From Bremerella sp. P1 (lineage in GTDB: Bacteria; Planctomycetota; Planctomycetia; Pirellulales; Pirellulaceae): 64,000 bases of DNA. A program made the position numbers and the translations under genes. Positions 20,103-38,418 of the stretch are shown piece after piece. The notes under the pieces were generated by a model. It did not search any database. It saw only the letters and a list, made by a program, of their open reading frames with translations, and had not been told where the DNA came from. Positions within the stretch are counted from its first letter, which is position 1. The number at the start of each line of letters is the position of its first letter. Location: the NCBI RefSeq assembly GCF_028748185.1, contig NZ_CP118164.1:1240001-1304000 (forward strand), given 5' to 3'.

Positions 20103-20188
20103 GGCCGAGTGGCGGAACTGGCAGACGCACAGGACTTAAAATCCTGCGAGGGGTAACCCTCGTGCGGGTTCGATCCCCGCCTCGGCCA
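20103..20188 (+). tRNA. tRNA-Leu (anticodon UAA)
   Basis: The acceptor stem GGCCGAG (20103-20109) pairs perfectly with CTCGGCC (20181-20187), with A73 as the leucine discriminator. Anticodon stem CAGGA/TCCTG with loop CTTAAAA gives anticodon TAA. A long variable arm (GCGAGGGGTAACCCTCGTG region) marks a class II tRNA, and the T-arm is GCGGG-TTCGATC-CCCGC. CCA is not fully encoded. Its 3' half is the attachment site of the island. Confidence 0.97.
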
Positions 20189-20190
20189 CT
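20135..20190 (+). repeat. attL (tRNA-Leu 3' half)
   Basis: 56 bp identical to 38363-38418. It begins at the C before TTAAAATCCTGCG in the anticodon loop and ends two bases past the discriminator, so the tRNA stays intact after integration. Confidence 0.95.
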
Positions 20191-20354: not shown

Positions 20355-21581
20355 CTACCCCTCCTTCGTGGAGCCTCCAAGGTTCTCAAGCACCCCCAGA
20401 AGACGCTCATTCAGAGCCTCCGCCTTGGCCAGTCGCTCAGCCAACTCGCCCTGGCCAGCCTTCGGCTCCTCCGCCTCACCGAAAAACTTTCGCCGCTTCT
20501 CCGCAGCACCGGCCAGCGACTGAGCCGCGTTCAGATAGTATCGCTCCGTCGTCACCGAGGTGGAGTGGCCAAGGTAACGGCTCGCCTCCGCAGTCGGCAC
20601 ACCAGCGGCAACAAGCTCTGTGCCGCAGGTCGAACGATACTCCTGGGGAGTTGGCCGCTGATCTACTGGAATCCCCGCAGCATCAGCAATCGCGTCCCAG
20701 TCGAAATAAAAAGCACGAATATCCTTCCCAGTCCAAGGCAAGATCGGCTCTGATCCCTTAGGTTTCCCGGATTCCACGAACCAGCTGTCCAACAATTCGT
20801 GAAGGGCGACAGCAGGGAGTTCGCGTTCTCGTCGTGCTTTGTTGCCGCTACCATCGCTTGGGATCGTCAGGGTCTGCTTTCTGCGGTTCCAGTTCTTCCA
20901 GGGGATAGCCATGATTTCGCAGCGTCGTGCTCCGAGTTCTTCCAACAGGAGGAGATACAGCCGCCACCAGGATTTGCTGCGTTGCTTCAGGACGAGATCG
21001 TCCTTGTCCAATGCTGCGAGCATCGCTTGTCGGATACTGGGATCGATGACGGTTGGATTCTTGAGGTCTTCGCGGACGATCAGCCCTTTGAACTTCGTGG
21101 TTCCGACCTGATGGTTCTGCTCGACGGCCCAGTTGATGGCAGTTCTGATCGAGCGAAGATCCTTGTTGACGGTTGGGGGTACCACAGATTCGAGTCGCTT
21201 GCCGATGAAGCCCTGAAGGACCGGGATGGTCACCTCGTCAAGCCAAAGGTCGCCCATGGCTTTCTGGAAGTTGTCGAGGCTCTGCTTATAGGCTGCTATG
21301 GTTAGCGGTCGTGTTCTGCCTTTCTTGCCGTCGAGGAACGCTTTGCTGAATTCCGACCATTTGATGCGGGTTGGCTTGGCTGTGCTGATGCCCCAGGGTG
21401 CCAGGGCGAGTTGTCGTTCCTTCTCACGGCGGATTTGATTTGCCACGGACTTATCGCGGGTCTTTGTGGTTTCGTAGGCGTATTTGCCGTTTGGCTGTTT
21501 CCACTTCATGACCCAGGTTTTGCTTTTGGTCTTCTTGCCGCTTTTGGTAACGGTTGGTTGGTAGAGCGTGACGGTCGCCAT
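20355..21581 (-). CDS. int: tyrosine recombinase/integrase of the island
   Basis: 408 aa. The N-terminal arm/core-binding part (WSEFSKAFLDGKKGRTRPLTIAAYKQSLDNFQKAMG) precedes the catalytic domain: first Arg in LEELGARRCEIMAI, second box TPQEYRSTCGTELVAAGV, then YLGHSTSVTTERYYL with the nucleophile Tyr. The usual His of the HxxR box is Gln (QEYR). A C-terminal coiled tail (LAERLAKAEALNERLLGVLENL) is extra. It integrates and excises the island at tRNA-Leu. The gene reads towards attL, the common arrangement for tRNA-targeting integrases. Confidence 0.95.
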   Translation of the reverse strand: MATVTLYQPTVTKSGKKTKSKTWVMKWKQPNGKYAYETTKTRDKSVANQIRREKERQLALAPWGISTAKPTRIKWSEFSKAFLDGKKGRTRPLTIAAYKQSLDNFQKAMGDLWLDEVTIPVLQGFIGKRLESVVPPTVNKDLRSIRTAINWAVEQNHQVGTTKFKGLIVREDLKNPTVIDPSIRQAMLAALDKDDLVLKQRSKSWWRLYLLLLEELGARRCEIMAIPWKNWNRRKQTLTIPSDGSGNKARRERELPAVALHELLDSWFVESGKPKGSEPILPWTGKDIRAFYFDWDAIADAAGIPVDQRPTPQEYRSTCGTELVAAGVPTAEASRYLGHSTSVTTERYYLNAAQSLAGAAEKRRKFFGEAEEPKAGQGELAERLAKAEALNERLLGVLENLGGSTKEG

Positions 21582-22883: not shown

Positions 22884-22912
22884 TGACCTGCCCCCACGAA
22901 TGAAACCAGTCT

Positions 22913-23776
22913 TTAAGTTGTAGTTTTCAAGGATTCTTCCAGGGGAAGGTGCTGGAGCGTAGCGGAAGCAGCTTCCCCTGGAAGAATTGCCTCCGGTGCC
23001 GGTGGACGGTACCCCAGCGAACTGTGCGGGCGTACCGTGTTGTACTCGACGCGCCATCGTTCGATCAACACTTTTGCCTCCAGGAGCGTGTCTAAGAGCT
23101 CTCGATCGAGCAGTTCATCGCGTAACTTCCCGTTGAAGGATTCGATATAGCCATTCTCCCACGGGCTGCCTGGTTCAATGTACAAGGTGTTCACCTCGAC
23201 TCGTTCCAGCCAGTCACGCACCTTTGTGGCGGTGAACTCTGAGCCGTTGTCGCTCCGGATGAAGTCCGGCACGCCTCGGCGAACAAACAGGTCACTAAGC
23301 CGCTCCAAGACGTCCTCACTGGTTAGTTGTCGGGCCACGTCGATCGCCAGGCACTCACGTGTGTATTCATCGATCAGTGTCAGCATCCGGAAGGCTCGAC
23401 CATCGTGCGTTCGGTGATGCACGAAGTCATAGCTCCAGACCTCATCGCGTTGACTCGGCCGCAAGCGAACACACGAACCATCATTAAGCCACAGGCGACG
23501 TCGTTTAGGCTGCCTTTTCGGCACTTTCAGGCCTTCACGACGCCACAGGCGTTCAATGCGTTTATGGTTCACCTGCCAACCTTTCCGTCGTAGCATCTCG
23601 GTAATTCGCCGATAGCCATAACGGCCGTACTGTTCAGCAAGTTCAATCATCTCCCGGACCAGGCGAGGCTCGTCATCGGGAACCCAGCGAACACGGCGCT
23701 GCGTGGAACGAGGCTGTCCCAGCACCCGGCAGGCCCTCCGTTCTGAGACTCGCTCGCGTCCCAAGGTATCTCGCAC
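22913..23776 (-). CDS. IS3-family transposase OrfB, copy 1
   Basis: 287 aa from the first ATG. Integrase-core transposase with D in SYDFVHHRTHDGRAF, D in FIRSDNGSEFTA and E in ENGYIESFNGKLRDELL, and an HTH_21-type segment YGYRRITEMLRRKGWQVNHKRIERLWR. It is normally made by -1 frameshifting from orfA through GGGAAAC (23821-23815). Here orfA has lost its start, so expression is doubtful. Confidence 0.93.
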   Translation of the reverse strand: MRDTLGRERVSERRACRVLGQPRSTQRRVRWVPDDEPRLVREMIELAEQYGRYGYRRITEMLRRKGWQVNHKRIERLWRREGLKVPKRQPKRRRLWLNDGSCVRLRPSQRDEVWSYDFVHHRTHDGRAFRMLTLIDEYTRECLAIDVARQLTSEDVLERLSDLFVRRGVPDFIRSDNGSEFTATKVRDWLERVEVNTLYIEPGSPWENGYIESFNGKLRDELLDRELLDTLLEAKVLIERWRVEYNTVRPHSSLGYRPPAPEAILPGEAASATLQHLPLEESLKTTT

Positions 23777-23808
23777 GTGCTCGACGAATCGCCGTCGCTT
23801 GTCCGGGC

Positions 23809-24077
23809 TCAGAAGTTTCCCGAAGCGGCCTCCTTCAGGATCGCCTTGTCGAGTTCGGCATCAGCCAGCAGTCGCTTCAGGCGAGCGTTCTCTTTCTCGA
23901 GCTCTTTCAAACGCTTGGCCTGATCGGTACGAACACCACCATACTCCTTCCGCCAGCGGTAGTACGTCTGCTCTGTGACGCCGATGGCCTTGCAGGCCTG
24001 GGCAATTGTCTTGTCCTGCGAAAGAAGCACCTCCGCTTCGCGGAGATGCTGAATGATCTGCTCGGGCGTGAATCTTC
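23809..24077 (-). pseudogene. IS3-family OrfA, copy 1, 5'-truncated
   Basis: Open from the junction with copy 2 (RRFTPEQIIQHLREAEVLLSQDKTIAQ) to the usual end LKEAASGNF. It lacks the initiator ATG and the codons before RRF. An HTH and leucine-zipper region (LKELEKENARLKRLLADAELDKAILKEA) remain. Confidence 0.85.
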
Positions 24078-24156
24078 TGACCTGCCCCCTTCAACCGCGT
24101 CCATTCGGTAAATTAGTTATTTGCTGAGTGAATGCCCATTTGAAGGGAGATTTCTA

Positions 24157-24435
24157 ATGCCTAGAAGACGATTCACGCCGGAGCAGATTATCCAGCATCT
24201 CCGCGAAGCAGAGGTGCTTCTTTCTCAGGACAAGACGATTGCCCAGGCCTGCAAGGCGATCGGCGTCACGGAGCAGACGTACTACCGTTGGCGGAAGGAG
24301 TACGGTGGCATTCGTACGGACCAAGCCAAGCGGTTAAAAGATCTGGAGAAAGAGAACGCTCGACTGAAGAGACTCCTGGCGGATGCCGAGCTTGACAAGG
24401 CGATCCTTAAGGAGGCCGCTTCGGGAAACTTCTGA
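24157..24435 (+). CDS. IS3-family OrfA (HTH/leucine-zipper) protein, copy 2
   Basis: 92 aa, MPRRRFTPEQIIQHLREAEVLLSQ with a helix-turn-helix (IAQACKAIGVTEQTYYRWRKEYGG) and a leucine zipper (LKDLEKENARLKRLLADAEL). It binds the IS ends and regulates transposition. GAAGGGA lies 8 nt upstream of ATG 24157; an earlier frame start at 24121 lacks a family match. Confidence 0.93.
   Translation: MPRRRFTPEQIIQHLREAEVLLSQDKTIAQACKAIGVTEQTYYRWRKEYGGIRTDQAKRLKDLEKENARLKRLLADAELDKAILKEAASGNF
24423..24429 (+). promoter_or_regulatory. -1 programmed frameshift heptamer G_GGA_AAC
   Basis: GGGAAAC fits X_XXY_YYZ in the orfA frame, 3 nt before the orfA stop TGA (24433-24435). Slipping -1 gives GGG AAA CTT CTG AGC and enters orfB (LSPDKRRRIVEHV), making the OrfAB transposase. 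Confidence 0.7.
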
Positions 24436-24467
24436 GCCCGGACAAGCGACGGCGAATCGTCGAGCAC

Positions 24468-25331
24468 GTGCGAGACGCCTTGGGACGCGCGCGAGTCTCG
24501 GAACGGCGGGCTTGTCGCGTGCTTGGGCAGCCGCGTTCCACGCAGCGCCGTGCTCGCTGGATTCCCGATGACGAACCTCGCCTGGTCCGGGAGATGATTG
24601 AGCTGGCCGAACAGTACGGTCGCTACGGCTATCGGCGAATTACCGAGATGTTGCGACGGAAAGGTTGGCAGGTGAACCATAAACGCATCGAGCGACTATG
24701 GCGTCGTGAAGGGCTGAAAGTACCGCAAAGGCAGCCTAAACGACGTCGCCTGTGGTTGAACGATGGTTCGTGTGTTCGCCTGCGGCCAAGTCGTCGCGAT
24801 GAGGTCTGGAGCTATGACTTCGTACATCACCGTACGCACGATGGCCGAGCCTTCCGGATGCTGACGCTGATCGATGAATATACACGCGAGTGCCTGGCGA
24901 TCGACGTCGCCCGTCAGTTAACCAGCGAGGAAGTCTTGGAACGCCTCAGTGACCTGTTCGTTCGACGCGGCGTGCCTGACTTCATCCGGAGCGATAATGG
25001 CTCCGAGTTCACAGCTACAAAGGTCCGTGACTGGTTAGAGCGAGTCGAGGTGAACACCTTGTACATCGAGCCAGGCAGTCCCTGGGAGAATGGCTACATC
25101 GAATCATTCAACGGGAAGCTGCGAGATGAACTACTCGATCGAGAGATCTTCGACACGCTACTGGAGGCAAAAGTGTTGATCGAACGGTGGCGAGTCGAGT
25201 ACAACACGGTACGCCCGCACAGTTCGCTGGGGTACCGCCCACCGGCACCGGAGGCAATTCTTCCAGGGGAAGGTGCTTCCGCTACGCTACAGCACCTTCC
25301 CCTGGAAGAACCCTTGAAGACTATCACTTAA
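24468..25331 (+). CDS. IS3-family transposase OrfB, copy 2
   Basis: 287 aa from the first ATG, but the frame is open back to the frameshift site and the active enzyme is the OrfAB fusion. DDE residues lie in SYDFVHHRTHDG, FIRSDNGSEF and NGYIESFNGK. It differs from copy 1 at a few residues (KVPQRQPKRR against KVPKRQPKRR, for example). Confidence 0.94.
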   Translation: MRDALGRARVSERRACRVLGQPRSTQRRARWIPDDEPRLVREMIELAEQYGRYGYRRITEMLRRKGWQVNHKRIERLWRREGLKVPQRQPKRRRLWLNDGSCVRLRPSRRDEVWSYDFVHHRTHDGRAFRMLTLIDEYTRECLAIDVARQLTSEEVLERLSDLFVRRGVPDFIRSDNGSEFTATKVRDWLERVEVNTLYIEPGSPWENGYIESFNGKLRDELLDREIFDTLLEAKVLIERWRVEYNTVRPHSSLGYRPPAPEAILPGEGASATLQHLPLEEPLKTIT

Positions 25332-25360
25332 AGACTGGTTTCATTCGCGGGGGCAGGTCA

Positions 25361-26086: not shown

Positions 26087-27232
26087 TCATGCAACCTCGT
26101 CAGGGATTAATTGATCGATATTCATTCCTCGCTGCTCTAAGGCATTCCTGAAAAGGTGTTTCCAAACACGAATCATCGACTCCACCTTGAATTGGTTTCT
26201 CACGGACATCCCGTTGAAAAGTTGTCTCAAGCGATACCTCGCCGGTGGGTGAGAATCCTGCTCTGTAATGCTGTCTTCTGTCAATGCAATGATCAGCAAA
26301 CAAAGTGTGACGCCCACAATCGGGCGAGTTTCATCTAGGCCTCCACTTTGAAACATCAGGACTGCTAGAGCAAAAGCATCAGCCTGCAGTTCAAACTCTT
26401 TAGAAGGACCTTGCCCTGTATGGCCCAAGAGCACGTGACCAAATTCATGAAACCACACGAACTGTATCGCCGCCAAAGCAAGTAAGCGGTACTCAAGTAG
26501 GGATCGAAAGTCGGCAGTTTCCCCTGACGCGGTACAGGTCGGGTATACAATGCCGCCTATCGTCTCACAACGCGCCAATCTAACAACTTCACGAGTCACG
26601 AATCTTATATCATCCCGCCGCGCAATCCTTTTTAGTTTATCCTCAATCCTGTCCGGTTCTGTAGCATAGTCCTCTAACTGTACGAAGCAGTAGCACAGAA
26701 GATTGGCAACTAGATCGATGGTCTTTTCTAACTGCGGGTACACACAGACGACAGGCACTCCTAAGATGCCTAGACTCGGACTGAAAAAAGCATTCATCTG
26801 CCTCTCAAATAGGTTGACGGATCTTACTTTCGAAATAAGTTCAAGAAGACCGCCTACTACGGTAGTTGGCGGCTCCCCGTCTTCGACAGGTGGCGGATCA
26901 AATATACTGCTCCAATAATCCTCACCTAGTTCGGTGAAGAATCCGTTCAACGTACTATCAATTAGGATTCGTTTACCGGCAGTGCCGCTTCGTGTCCAAT
27001 CAAGCAGGCTATCGGATTCAATTACGCTACGATAGTGCTGAGTCTCCCAATCCCTAAGGACTTTCGGAATGCCTTCAGTGCTTTCCAGAACGGACAGTCG
27101 CCGTTTCGCCTGACGACGGTGTTCTTCTAGGACCTGTGTAGCAAAGTCTTCCATCGAGACGCCTACACTACCGGCAAATTGGCGGATTGATTCAAGTTCA
27201 ATGAGTTCGATTCTTTGTTCTAAGCTTAGCAC
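26087..27232 (-). CDS. zinc metalloprotease-like protein, Lit/U49-like
   Basis: 381 aa. The zincin motif HEFGHVLLGH starts at His262, followed by FELQADAFALAVLM, which supplies an acidic third ligand, as in Lit (peptidase U49) and ImmA/IrrE-type proteases. The N-terminal 240 residues have no recognised domain and no signal peptide or membrane helix, so it acts in the cytosol. Lit cleaves EF-Tu on phage infection; whether this one does is unknown. It is transcribed divergently from a 182-aa gene (114-bp gap) inside the island, and its codon use looks more A+T-rich than the flanking core genes. Confidence 0.65.
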   Translation of the reverse strand: MLSLEQRIELIELESIRQFAGSVGVSMEDFATQVLEEHRRQAKRRLSVLESTEGIPKVLRDWETQHYRSVIESDSLLDWTRSGTAGKRILIDSTLNGFFTELGEDYWSSIFDPPPVEDGEPPTTVVGGLLELISKVRSVNLFERQMNAFFSPSLGILGVPVVCVYPQLEKTIDLVANLLCYCFVQLEDYATEPDRIEDKLKRIARRDDIRFVTREVVRLARCETIGGIVYPTCTASGETADFRSLLEYRLLALAAIQFVWFHEFGHVLLGHTGQGPSKEFELQADAFALAVLMFQSGGLDETRPIVGVTLCLLIIALTEDSITEQDSHPPARYRLRQLFNGMSVRNQFKVESMIRVWKHLFRNALEQRGMNIDQLIPDEVA

Positions 27233-30592: not shown

Positions 30593-31210
30593 ATGTCTGG
30601 AAATATCTACGCACCAAGAATCTGTCGGGAATGCGGCAAGGATGACTCAGAAATAGATTTCAAGCCCAAGGCCAACATCTGCGTCCCCTGCAACCAGGAA
30701 TATATGCGCGCGTACCGCAAAAGAAACCGCGAGAAGATCAGAGGCCAAGTTCAAGACTGGAAAGACACCAACCGCGCACACTACCAAAAGAAGACACGAG
30801 AACGGTACAACACGCCAGAAGGAAAGGCCCTGCACGTCGCACGAGTTGAGCGAACACCCAGAAGTTGGCTCGGCCACGTCCTGTCAACAATCAGAGCAAA
30901 ATGTAAGAAGCCTGGACCTCATGACGCCAAGTCTGGGCCACAGCGAGATTACGAAATTGACCTCGATTTCGTCGTCAATCTCTTCAAGCAACAGGAAGGG
31001 CGGTGTGCTATCTCAGGTTTGGAGATGGAGCACAAATTCAACAGCCTCCGCAGTGCCTCGATCGATCGAATTGACAGTTCGCTAGGGTACGTCGCAGGCA
31101 ACGTCCAGATCGTCTGCAGCTTCGCCAACTTCGCCAAACGCCACTTCCCAAATGACGACATGCTTTCAATCGTCGCGGATATCAAGGTCCTGGGGGGCTG
31201 TACTGAGTAA
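30593..31210 (+). CDS. HNH endonuclease family protein
   Basis: 205 aa. An N-terminal zinc ribbon (CRECGKDDSEIDFKPKANIC then VPC) precedes a basic helical linker (YMRAYRKRNREKIRGQVQDW). The HNH-type nuclease core is CAISGLEMEH, then ASIDRIDSSLGYVAGNVQIVC. The SIDRID...GNVQ pattern is common in phage and homing-type HNH proteins. There is no RuvC or PLMP domain, so it is not IscB. GGAG precedes the ATG by 8 nt. Related two-hairpin elements flank the gene on both sides, which may mark a mobile cassette. Confidence 0.78.
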   Translation: MSGNIYAPRICRECGKDDSEIDFKPKANICVPCNQEYMRAYRKRNREKIRGQVQDWKDTNRAHYQKKTRERYNTPEGKALHVARVERTPRSWLGHVLSTIRAKCKKPGPHDAKSGPQRDYEIDLDFVVNLFKQQEGRCAISGLEMEHKFNSLRSASIDRIDSSLGYVAGNVQIVCSFANFAKRHFPNDDMLSIVADIKVLGGCTE

Positions 31211-31678: not shown

Positions 31679-31876
31679 ATGTCTACCGAATCTCCAAAAC
31701 CGAATGATTTCGTGGCGAGATGGCTATTAAACGCGATTTCAGATGCCACTCTGAACCAAGAAATAGTTGAAATTCTGTCAGATCACCAGAAAAACGGGAC
31801 GGCCACAGATGACAAAATCCTGAAGTCTGTGCTTAAGCTGACGCCCAAATCGGGGGAGTCTGATGAAATCCATTAA
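31679..31876 (+). CDS. 65-aa protein, first gene of the SMC-ATPase operon
   Basis: Helical, soluble, unknown: NDFVARWLLNAISDATLNQE then a charged C-terminus ending GESDEIH. Its end overlaps the ATPase start by 14 bp, so the two are translated together. A small protein ahead of an SMC-type effector ATPase suggests a partner or antitoxin-like role, which is inference only. Confidence 0.6.
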   Translation: MSTESPKPNDFVARWLLNAISDATLNQEIVEILSDHQKNGTATDDKILKSVLKLTPKSGESDEIH

Positions 31877-34283
31877 ACGAATCACTGTATCCGGCTTTCG
31901 GGGAATAGTGACTCCGCTGGAACTCTCGTTCGTCAAAGGTGGTAGTACCACGTCAATGGTTCTATTTGGCCGAAATGGCTTCGGCAAAATCTCGCTGACC
32001 GACGCTTGGGAGTGGATGCAAACGGACCGCATTGTTCGACTAGGTCGCGAGGGTGCAGGTCCCAATGCGTTTCCTCATCGAGATGCAGCCGATGGCGATT
32101 CTTTCGTTGAAGTAGAGTTTGCTAATTTGGGTCTTGGAAAGATTATATTCAATCAGAAAAAGGTCACGATGCCATCGCGGGATGGGGTGATCGACGCGTT
32201 CCGCCAAGCAGCACCATACCCTTGCACATTGCGATACGAGGACTTGACGCAATTTGTCTATTCCACAAAGGCAGAGCAGTACGACGCTCTAGCGGTTTTG
32301 ATGAGTTTTACCCCGCAGGTCGAATACCAAAAGATGCTCCGTCGAGTAAGTCGCAAGCTAGAAGAAGAGAGTAACAAGCAGACAGCGGTCGCAGATCGAG
32401 AAGAGACAAAGTTGGCGGAAATCATTGGAGAGAAACCTGATGCGACTAAGCTACTTAAGTTTCTCCAGGGGAAGTTTATTGACGCCAACGCAGAGTCCCC
32501 GGCGACGGTGTCGGAAGCGACGAAGGCACTAGAAGGACTTACGGAAGCAATCAAAAGCGATCCGCGAGCAGCATCCTTGGCAGATCATATCAGCCTGCGT
32601 AAGTGCATTGACGACCTCAATTCTGGGGCGGTAGTTGAAGCTGATCTCGCTATGTACTCCGCCGAAGTTGAAACATTTAAAAACACCGAGCGAGACGCAG
32701 TCGACTTGATGCTGATTGGGCTCTATGAAAAAGGGCAAGAGGTAATAGAAAAACGCGATCTTGGCGAAGACGCACCCTGTCCGTTATGCGGAAACATCTT
32801 CCAAGGGAGCCTCGCAGAACACATTCAAGGCGAGTTGGAATCATTGCATTCGCTTAAGTCGGCGAAGGACAAGCTTGAAGCATCTAGATTAAGGCAGGTC
32901 ACGAGCATCTCATCATACGGGACGCTCGCAAAAGCGTTGAAAGTTGGCACCAAGGGCAATAAGGTCGCAACCGAGCTACTGCTAAAAGAGATCACTGACG
33001 CTTGCAAGGCGTTAGATGCTTGTTTCAGCGAGTTGAGTGATTTGCTTAAGGTAACGCCCGATAAAGTGACGGCGGACACATCCACTCAGATACGCAGAGC
33101 GGTCACTAGCATTGCAGATAACGCCAGTGCATTCGACGCTTTACAAAAGGGATTGTTAGAAAAGATTGATGCGGAAATCGAATCCTTGAGAGATGATGGC
33201 TCACGCGAGAAACTTGTCAACGCAGCGAGCCAAATCACGTTGGCGATGAATCAGTGGGACGAGTATATCGGCGCAAAAGCATGTTTACTTGCTGTTATGA
33301 AGAAACGCCGCGATTTCGAGGCAATTACTATCAACTATATTAGCACGAGCAATGCAGATATTGAGGCAAAGTTCAACAGCATCTCGGCCGATGTGGAGAA
33401 GTATTTCGGGATCCTTGAGGAGCACACAGAAGGTGTAGGTCGACCGGTGCTGCGATTACAGATGGACCAGGACCGCGCGGTTACTTTGGAAATCGAGTTC
33501 CGTGGCGAGCCAATCAGTCCGGCATATAAGTACTTGAGTGAATCTCAACTCAATAGCTTTGGACTGGCGTTGTTCCTCGCTGCGGCACGTCGCTTCAATG
33601 TCGGTTTTCGTTTTTTGCTACTGGACGACATCGTCAACAGTTTCGATGCTTACAAGCGGCCTCAACTTATTAGGTTGCTGAAGTCCGAGTTTGGAGATTT
33701 CCAGTTCCTTCTATTGACACATGATGAAGTGTGGTGCGAGCAATTGTTCTCTAATTTCCCGCAATGGGTTCGCAAACGTATTACGCGATACGACGTGACC
33801 ACTGGTCCTATCATCCAGGACGGATTGTGCGATTTAGAGAAGGTCGAGAAAGATTTAGACGATGACTTGCCTTCGAGGGCGGGGCAATTGCTCGGACCAA
33901 TGCTTGAACGGGAACTTCAAGAGATGTGCGAAGCGTTTGAGGCATCGGTCGCCTACAACCGGCGGAATGAATACACATTGAAACCCCTACTCACTCGATT
34001 GATCGTAAGGGTTAAGGAAAAGCTGAAGTCGGCACACAAGCTGACAGTGATGCTTAACGACCTCGATGCAAACTCGGCCTTCCGAAACTTTTGTGCTCAC
34101 TGGAAAACTCCATCAAGCCCTATTACCACACAAGAAGTGCGTGAGGTGCTAAGAATCTGGAAGAACATTGTTGCAATGGTTAAGTGCTCCGAGGAAAAGT
34201 GCACCGGATATGCAAAGTATGACAATGGCACCTTTGTCTGCAATTGTAAGAAGCTGAGGCTGGCCAAGGGGGATCCAGCCTAA
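31863..34283 (+). CDS. SMC/RecF-type ATPase with zinc hook and C-terminal HEPN-like motif (RloC-like)
   Basis: 806 aa. Domain order: ABC-ATPase head with Walker A GRNGFGKIS (residues 36-44; the residue after Lys42 is Ile where Ser/Thr is usual), coiled coil with zinc hook CPLC (306-309), second coil, signature LSESQLNS (558-565), Walker B LLLDDIVNSFD (Asp588-Asp589), His620 in LLTHDEVW. The C-terminus holds RNFCAHWK with the RX4H spacing of HEPN RNases (Arg741, His746) and a Cys cluster CSEEKC...CNC. The architecture parallels RloC, a phage-exclusion ATPase/tRNA nuclease. Nuclease activity is inferred. It is coupled to the 65-aa gene. Confidence 0.72.
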   Translation: MKSIKRITVSGFRGIVTPLELSFVKGGSTTSMVLFGRNGFGKISLTDAWEWMQTDRIVRLGREGAGPNAFPHRDAADGDSFVEVEFANLGLGKIIFNQKKVTMPSRDGVIDAFRQAAPYPCTLRYEDLTQFVYSTKAEQYDALAVLMSFTPQVEYQKMLRRVSRKLEEESNKQTAVADREETKLAEIIGEKPDATKLLKFLQGKFIDANAESPATVSEATKALEGLTEAIKSDPRAASLADHISLRKCIDDLNSGAVVEADLAMYSAEVETFKNTERDAVDLMLIGLYEKGQEVIEKRDLGEDAPCPLCGNIFQGSLAEHIQGELESLHSLKSAKDKLEASRLRQVTSISSYGTLAKALKVGTKGNKVATELLLKEITDACKALDACFSELSDLLKVTPDKVTADTSTQIRRAVTSIADNASAFDALQKGLLEKIDAEIESLRDDGSREKLVNAASQITLAMNQWDEYIGAKACLLAVMKKRRDFEAITINYISTSNADIEAKFNSISADVEKYFGILEEHTEGVGRPVLRLQMDQDRAVTLEIEFRGEPISPAYKYLSESQLNSFGLALFLAAARRFNVGFRFLLLDDIVNSFDAYKRPQLIRLLKSEFGDFQFLLLTHDEVWCEQLFSNFPQWVRKRITRYDVTTGPIIQDGLCDLEKVEKDLDDDLPSRAGQLLGPMLERELQEMCEAFEASVAYNRRNEYTLKPLLTRLIVRVKEKLKSAHKLTVMLNDLDANSAFRNFCAHWKTPSSPITTQEVREVLRIWKNIVAMVKCSEEKCTGYAKYDNGTFVCNCKKLRLAKGDPA

Positions 34284-38362: not shown

Positions 38363-38418
38363 CTTAAAATCCTGCGAGGGGTAACCCTCGTGCGGGTTCG
38401 ATCCCCGCCTCGGCCACT
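38363..38418 (+). repeat. attR (copy of tRNA-Leu 3' half)
   Basis: 56 bp identical to attL. It lacks the 5' half of a tRNA, so it is not a functional tRNA gene. TTTCTTTT follows outside the island. Confidence 0.95.

Follow-up and report, generated by a model that had tools for sequence, protein, structure and literature searches.

A pair of overlapping genes on a tRNA-borne island of Bremerella sp. P1 probably forms an alarm that answers phage infection by shutting the cell down. We read the pair as a two-gene abortive-infection module, in which a putative RNase would be gated by a Rad50-type sensor and a small partner protein, and give this reading a probability of about 0.62. Bearing on it are the conserved anatomy of the ATPase, the predicted HEPN fold at its C-terminus, the link of the small gene to the ATPase across distant hosts, the mobile location and the company that both genes keep in other genomes.

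Layout of the gene pair

The window, meaning the whole 64,000-nucleotide stretch that was analysed, carries both open reading frames of the operon proposed in the preliminary description, on the + strand and with a 14-nt overlap. Their features are:

31679..31876, + strand: small gene, encoding 65 aa; its last 14 nt lie within the ATPase gene
31852..31858, + strand: Shine-Dalgarno-like sequence GGGGGAG, ahead of the ATPase start
31863..34283, + strand: 806-aa Rad50-type ABC ATPase with a C-terminal HEPN-fold domain and zinc ribbon
31968..31994, + strand: Walker A, GRNGFGKIS, with Ile43 in place of the Mg-binding Ser/Thr
32778..32789, + strand: CPLC zinc hook at the coiled-coil tip, residues 306-309; CPxC in 85/85 relatives
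33534..33548, + strand: ABC signature LSESQ, residues 558-562
33612..33629, + strand: Walker B, FLLLDD, residues 584-589, both Asp invariant
33828..34181, + strand: predicted HEPN-fold domain, about residues 656-773 (AlphaFold2 model and PDB matches)
33894..33908, + strand: Gly678 to Glu682; R-X3-E in the sister clade, as in RloC/PrrC
34083..34100, + strand: RNFCAH, an RX4H motif, residues 741-746
34185..34247, + strand: C-terminal zinc ribbon, C775/C780/C793/C795

The operon has a GC content of 48.9%, against 55.0% outside the element. Just upstream lies a phage-type HNH/endonuclease VII-like gene (30593-31210, +; phrog_3322, E 1e-19).

A Rad50-type ATPase with a changed Walker A

The ATPase has a split ABC head with His620 as the H-loop. 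The zinc hook and RNFCAH motif claimed earlier are both found, as CPLC (residues 306-309) and at residues 741-746, together with Walker B (LLLDD, 585-589) and His620. For comparison we used relatives from planctomycete genomes, from plasmids and from a species-representative collection (80 loci). In 85 of them hook, Walker B, His620 and E682 never vary, and N742 and H746 hardly do. Conservation on this scale means that the ATPase motifs are not chance. Also conserved is the zinc ribbon (C775/C780/C793/C795), which was absent from the features listed in the preliminary description. Pfam matched SMC_N/AAA_23 alone in the window ATPase, and the best PADLOC match is LmuB (E 3.1e-22). In a full-length model (pLDDT 87.9) the head and coiled coil match Rad50 with Z 28; this search is uninformative on the C-terminus because Rad50/SMC chains fill its matches.

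The Walker A motif is present, but GRNGFGKIS carries Ile43 in the window copy alone, at a position that is Ser or Thr in the other 84 aligned relatives. The Ser/Thr of Walker A normally helps bind Mg-ATP. The Ile43 codon is ATC (31989-31991), in a reading frame that is otherwise intact. Because Ile43 replaces the Mg-binding residue, the window allele may, judged from its sequence, be partly or wholly inactive.

A predicted HEPN fold at the C-terminus

The C-terminus had been proposed to adopt a HEPN fold, and structure prediction bears this out. Residues 642-806, modelled by AlphaFold2 on 59 family sequences, reached a pLDDT of 92.6 and a pTM of 0.83. When the model was compared with PDB structures by VIA-align (996 aligned chains), rows 1-17 were all HEPN proteins or structural-genomics relatives, HepT toxins and Csm6 among them, with Z-scores of 8.0-5.5, a range in which a common arrangement in helical proteins can also be reflected (Z < 8); unrelated rows begin at Z 5.1 or less. 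Foldseek alone gave a weak HEPN match (best 2hsb, E 0.56, prob 0.80), and a sequence profile of the domain found chance matches only among PDB chains. Besides the predicted helical fold, the window copy has the superfamily's RX4-6H motif with N/D/H after the arginine, and R-N and H are invariant in the 19 members of its clade. The C-terminal domain probably cuts RNA, and the zinc ribbon may help bind it.

Many HEPN domains are non-catalytic (PMC3710099), and the head is closest to Rad50, so the ATPase could instead serve mobile elements in DNA repair or maintenance, with a HEPN fold that binds RNA or protein without catalysis. Two observations make this improbable: E682, one arginine, N742 and H746 are kept in relatives of about 20% identity, as expected of an active site, and copies of the gene are embedded in BREX operons or adjoin restriction-modification (R-M) genes.

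One arginine, two positions

E682 is found in 85/85 relatives of the main set and H746 in 84/85, with 64 residues from E to H in the window copy and 61-70 in the two main clades. The clades differ in where they place the arginine. All 19 members of the window clade have R741 together with Gly678, in the motif F-R-N-[FYI]-[CS]-x-H-[WY]-K, whereas in all 56 of the sister clade the order is R678-X3-E682, residue 741 is never Arg (Gly, Ala or another), and Ser/Thr precedes the histidine. Across 95 relatives, a set that includes a few genes fetched twice, there is exactly one arginine in every row (R678 in 71, R741 in 24), never both and never none. The residue order of the sister clade matches the R-X3-E...(S)H triad of RloC/PrrC, but with a longer E-H spacing than the X36-52 of RloC (PMC2610378).

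On these sequences we read the domain as having a single active site in which the arginine has shifted from one helix to another, with positions 678 and 741 presumably facing the same pocket. The tree places two coincident changes at each arginine site, and the AU test does not reject a single origin (p 0.175). The swap is not statistically independent evidence, because it amounts to one or two events and a sign test cannot reach significance; for the same reason repeated independent swaps are not demonstrable.

The small gene and its link to the ATPase

Of the genome-contig loci, 78 have a readable 5' end, and in each of them a small upstream ORF adjoins or overlaps the ATPase start; 77 were scored by script, and in the 78th (L059) the small gene sits in the same frame, where the translation shows it. 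The link that the preliminary description wanted checked in gene neighbourhoods is thus kept in every testable relative. A mechanical control on neighbour genes found such an ORF upstream of 46 of 195, so position alone is no proof; homology supplies it. Among 720 window ORFs, the small ORF ranked first with a profile from two relatives (L019 and L020; E 4e-6) and first again with the small-gene profile of the sister clade (E 0.009), and the profiles of the two clades align collinearly (P 0.003). The family's small partners are 54-80 aa long and are annotated as hypothetical proteins in most plasmid records. The window protein matched no LmuC model, although it is short and fast-evolving, and the small-protein profile found chance matches only among PDB chains.

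The earlier description had offered the small protein as a regulator or antitoxin. A toxin-antitoxin pair, with the small protein directly neutralising a HEPN toxin, would suit a small overlapping upstream gene, the common use of HEPN folds as toxins of such pairs, and the presence of HepT among the nearest structural matches. Two haloarchaeal relatives speak against it (L123:3989-5962 and L126:3368-5332): their ATPases stop at about residue 652, lacking HEPN domain and zinc ribbon, and no trace of HEPN follows downstream, yet both loci retain the overlapping small gene. The HEPN domain is therefore not needed in every context, and direct neutralisation is highly improbable. Since the small protein persists where HEPN is missing, these sequences favour a role as partner of the ATPase over one as antitoxin to HEPN, which qualifies the earlier proposal.

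Two further ATPases (L124:2804-5551 and L125:2705-5527; 915-940 aa) are extended at the N-terminus by ~100 aa, with an Ala/Pro linker, and lack a small gene of their own. That the added stretch is a fused small partner was considered and dropped, as BLAST against the small proteins of L130 and L014 gave a non-significant E of about 1.

Spread of the family

Relatives occur in 12 of 392 Planctomycetota genomes, and hosts elsewhere belong to Chloroflexota, Bacteroidota, Pseudomonadota and archaea; they include Chloroflexi, Methanosarcinales, Methanophagales archaea, Haloarchaea, Bacteroidota, Alphaproteobacteria, Desulfobacterota and Nitrospirae. The closest relative, from a Chloroflexi MAG, is 45% identical over its full length. 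Searches of viral contigs and of a phage collection returned no relative. An alignment of 17 diverse members (A1) was too divergent for a degenerate scan, and a closer subset worked.

Host island and defence neighbourhood

The pair sits in an 18.2-kb integrative element, between direct repeats of 56 bp that come from the 3' portion of a tRNA-Leu gene, with the integrase next to one end:

20103..20189, + strand: tRNA-Leu (TAA), attachment gene of the island
20135..20190, + strand: left attachment repeat, 56 bp, identical to the right
20355..21581, - strand: tyrosine integrase (PF00589, E 5.7e-12; phrog_1, E 2.1e-34)
38363..38418, + strand: right attachment repeat

Attachment repeats, integrase and an empty site with contiguous flanks in three congeners confirm the tRNA-borne island suspected earlier. 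The island also carries a 2.5-kb imperfect palindrome (22884-25360; arms 89% identical) made of two head-to-head IS3-like transposase copies (22913-23776, -, and 24468-25331, +). A metallopeptidase-like gene at 26087-27232 (-; PADLOC Lit/peptidase U41, E 6e-9; weak Peptidase_M78) is, by these matches, a possible second defence gene of the island.

The preliminary description had argued from the island to a defence role. The island stands; the role we derive from context, that is, from individual neighbour cases together with the mobile location, which suggest defence. Two archaeal copies lie inside BREX operons between pglX and pglZ: in Halorhabdus pHTIA the order is pglX-small gene-ATPase-pglZ, and in Methanohalophilus a PglX-like gene, the small gene, the ATPase, PglZ and BrxL follow one another. 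A Methanosarcinaceae MAG has the order ATPase-PglZ-BrxL. L024 and L025, the latter from Methanohalophilus, are the loci with PglZ and BrxL downstream of the ATPase. Type III R-M genes adjoin L038, a DRT gene adjoins L033, Hma/DrmD-like genes adjoin L021 and MmeI adjoins L127, while DarT and TIR genes lie near L107. The window's own genome has no PglZ. The available part of a BREX survey of 2026 (PMC12839542) lists HEPN back-up effectors that are stand-alone, MNT-fused or DUF499-fused, and does not describe a pair of ATPase-HEPN and small gene.

Proposed mechanism and meaning

From this computationally defined anatomy we infer how sensing, gating by dimerisation, substrate and defence may be connected. 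The ATPase and its obligate small partner would sense a DNA state that a phage or plasmid creates, or notice that a BREX or R-M system next to them has failed. ATP-driven engagement of two heads would then pair the two C-terminal HEPN domains, and this pairing would switch on a metal-independent RNase, whose target would most likely be tRNA by analogy with RloC/PrrC (PMC2610378, PMC3710099). Translation would stop, and the infected cell would die or go to sleep.

If active, the pair would add a small-protein-gated branch to the suicide RNases of the RloC/PrrC type. Because copies sit within BREX operons, a back-up role is suggested, with firing upon BREX failure, as PrrC fires for type I R-M. 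Through the relocated arginine, the relation between the RloC triad and the classical HEPN motif can be tested directly, and the small partner is a candidate sensor, brake or assembly factor. More broadly, and more tentatively, the pair could stand for a widespread but so far undescribed immune family of two genes, made up of a Rad50-type ATPase with HEPN and zinc ribbon and of an obligate small partner. At least two archaeal lineages would have taken it into their BREX operons, and its catalytic arginine would have moved between helices (R-X3-E vs RX4H), so that a single family would connect the triad of RloC/PrrC with the HEPN motif in its classical form; we hold this to be a serious possibility that falls somewhat short of an even chance.

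Comparison with known systems

The preliminary description likened the ATPase to RloC, and as regards architecture the likeness stands. Both have a Rad50-like ABC head, a CXXC hook and a C-terminal HEPN RNase domain (putative here), in the same order of head, hook, head and HEPN; RloC is of similar length (658-897 aa, PMC2610378), and the sister clade has the R-X3-E...SH of RloC/PrrC. The triad and the profile do not follow. The window copy has Gly678, not Arg, in G678-X3-E682, its clade carries the arginine in RX4H, and 64 residues separate E from H where RloC has 36-52. PF13166 (AAA_13, the PrrC/RloC profile) has no match in the window at E up to 1 and matches 9 of 59 members, and neither a zinc ribbon nor an obligate small upstream gene is described for RloC in the available part of the literature. 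That the pair is a genuine RloC/PrrC anticodon nuclease plus one additional gene is for these reasons very unlikely; as far as sequence tells, the pair resembles RloC but is not RloC. Elsewhere in the host genome, another AAA_13-type ATPase (G000:C1:195226-196221) scores above the PF13166 cut-off.

Lamassu (LmuB/LmuC; DdmABC; ABC-3C) likewise combines a Rad50-like hooked ATPase with a small upstream partner. The ATPase could be LmuB, the small gene, placed as in lmuC-lmuB, a reduced LmuC, and the effector fused to LmuB or lost. LmuB models match 57/59 members (best E 1.9e-33), and LmuC is lacking in some Lamassu systems. We nevertheless regard this reading as unlikely. The window's best LmuB match covers residues 123-632, outside the C-terminal domain; PADLOC found no LmuA among 10 island proteins scanned, the candidate effector being fused to the ATPase C-terminus instead; and the family's partner, at 54-80 aa, is without an LmuC match, though a protein so short and fast-evolving may fail to give one. 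The Glu-to-Gln change that is general, though not universal, in the Lamassu Walker B has no counterpart here, where Asp589 is invariant in 85/85 aligned sequences, and a HEPN domain and zinc ribbon fused to LmuB are not among the features described in PMC10586767.

DndD/DndE and PbeC/PbeD also pair a coiled-coil hooked ABC ATPase with a small protein, but the available part of their descriptions reports no ATPase fused to HEPN, DndE belongs to the ribbon-helix-helix proteins, and the PbeC match is weak. Other ABC-HEPN fusions (Anantharaman et al. 2013; the APECO1_4465 and ERFG_01251 groups) share the ABC ATPase with C-terminal HEPN and a place in mobile islands or beside CRISPR; compared by description only, they differ in that the available part of the text mentions neither small partner nor zinc ribbon. 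We place the pair as a new variant among ABC-HEPN proteins in general, one of a family that the survey of ABC-ATPase conflict systems (doi 10.1093/nar/gkaa726) may already mention.
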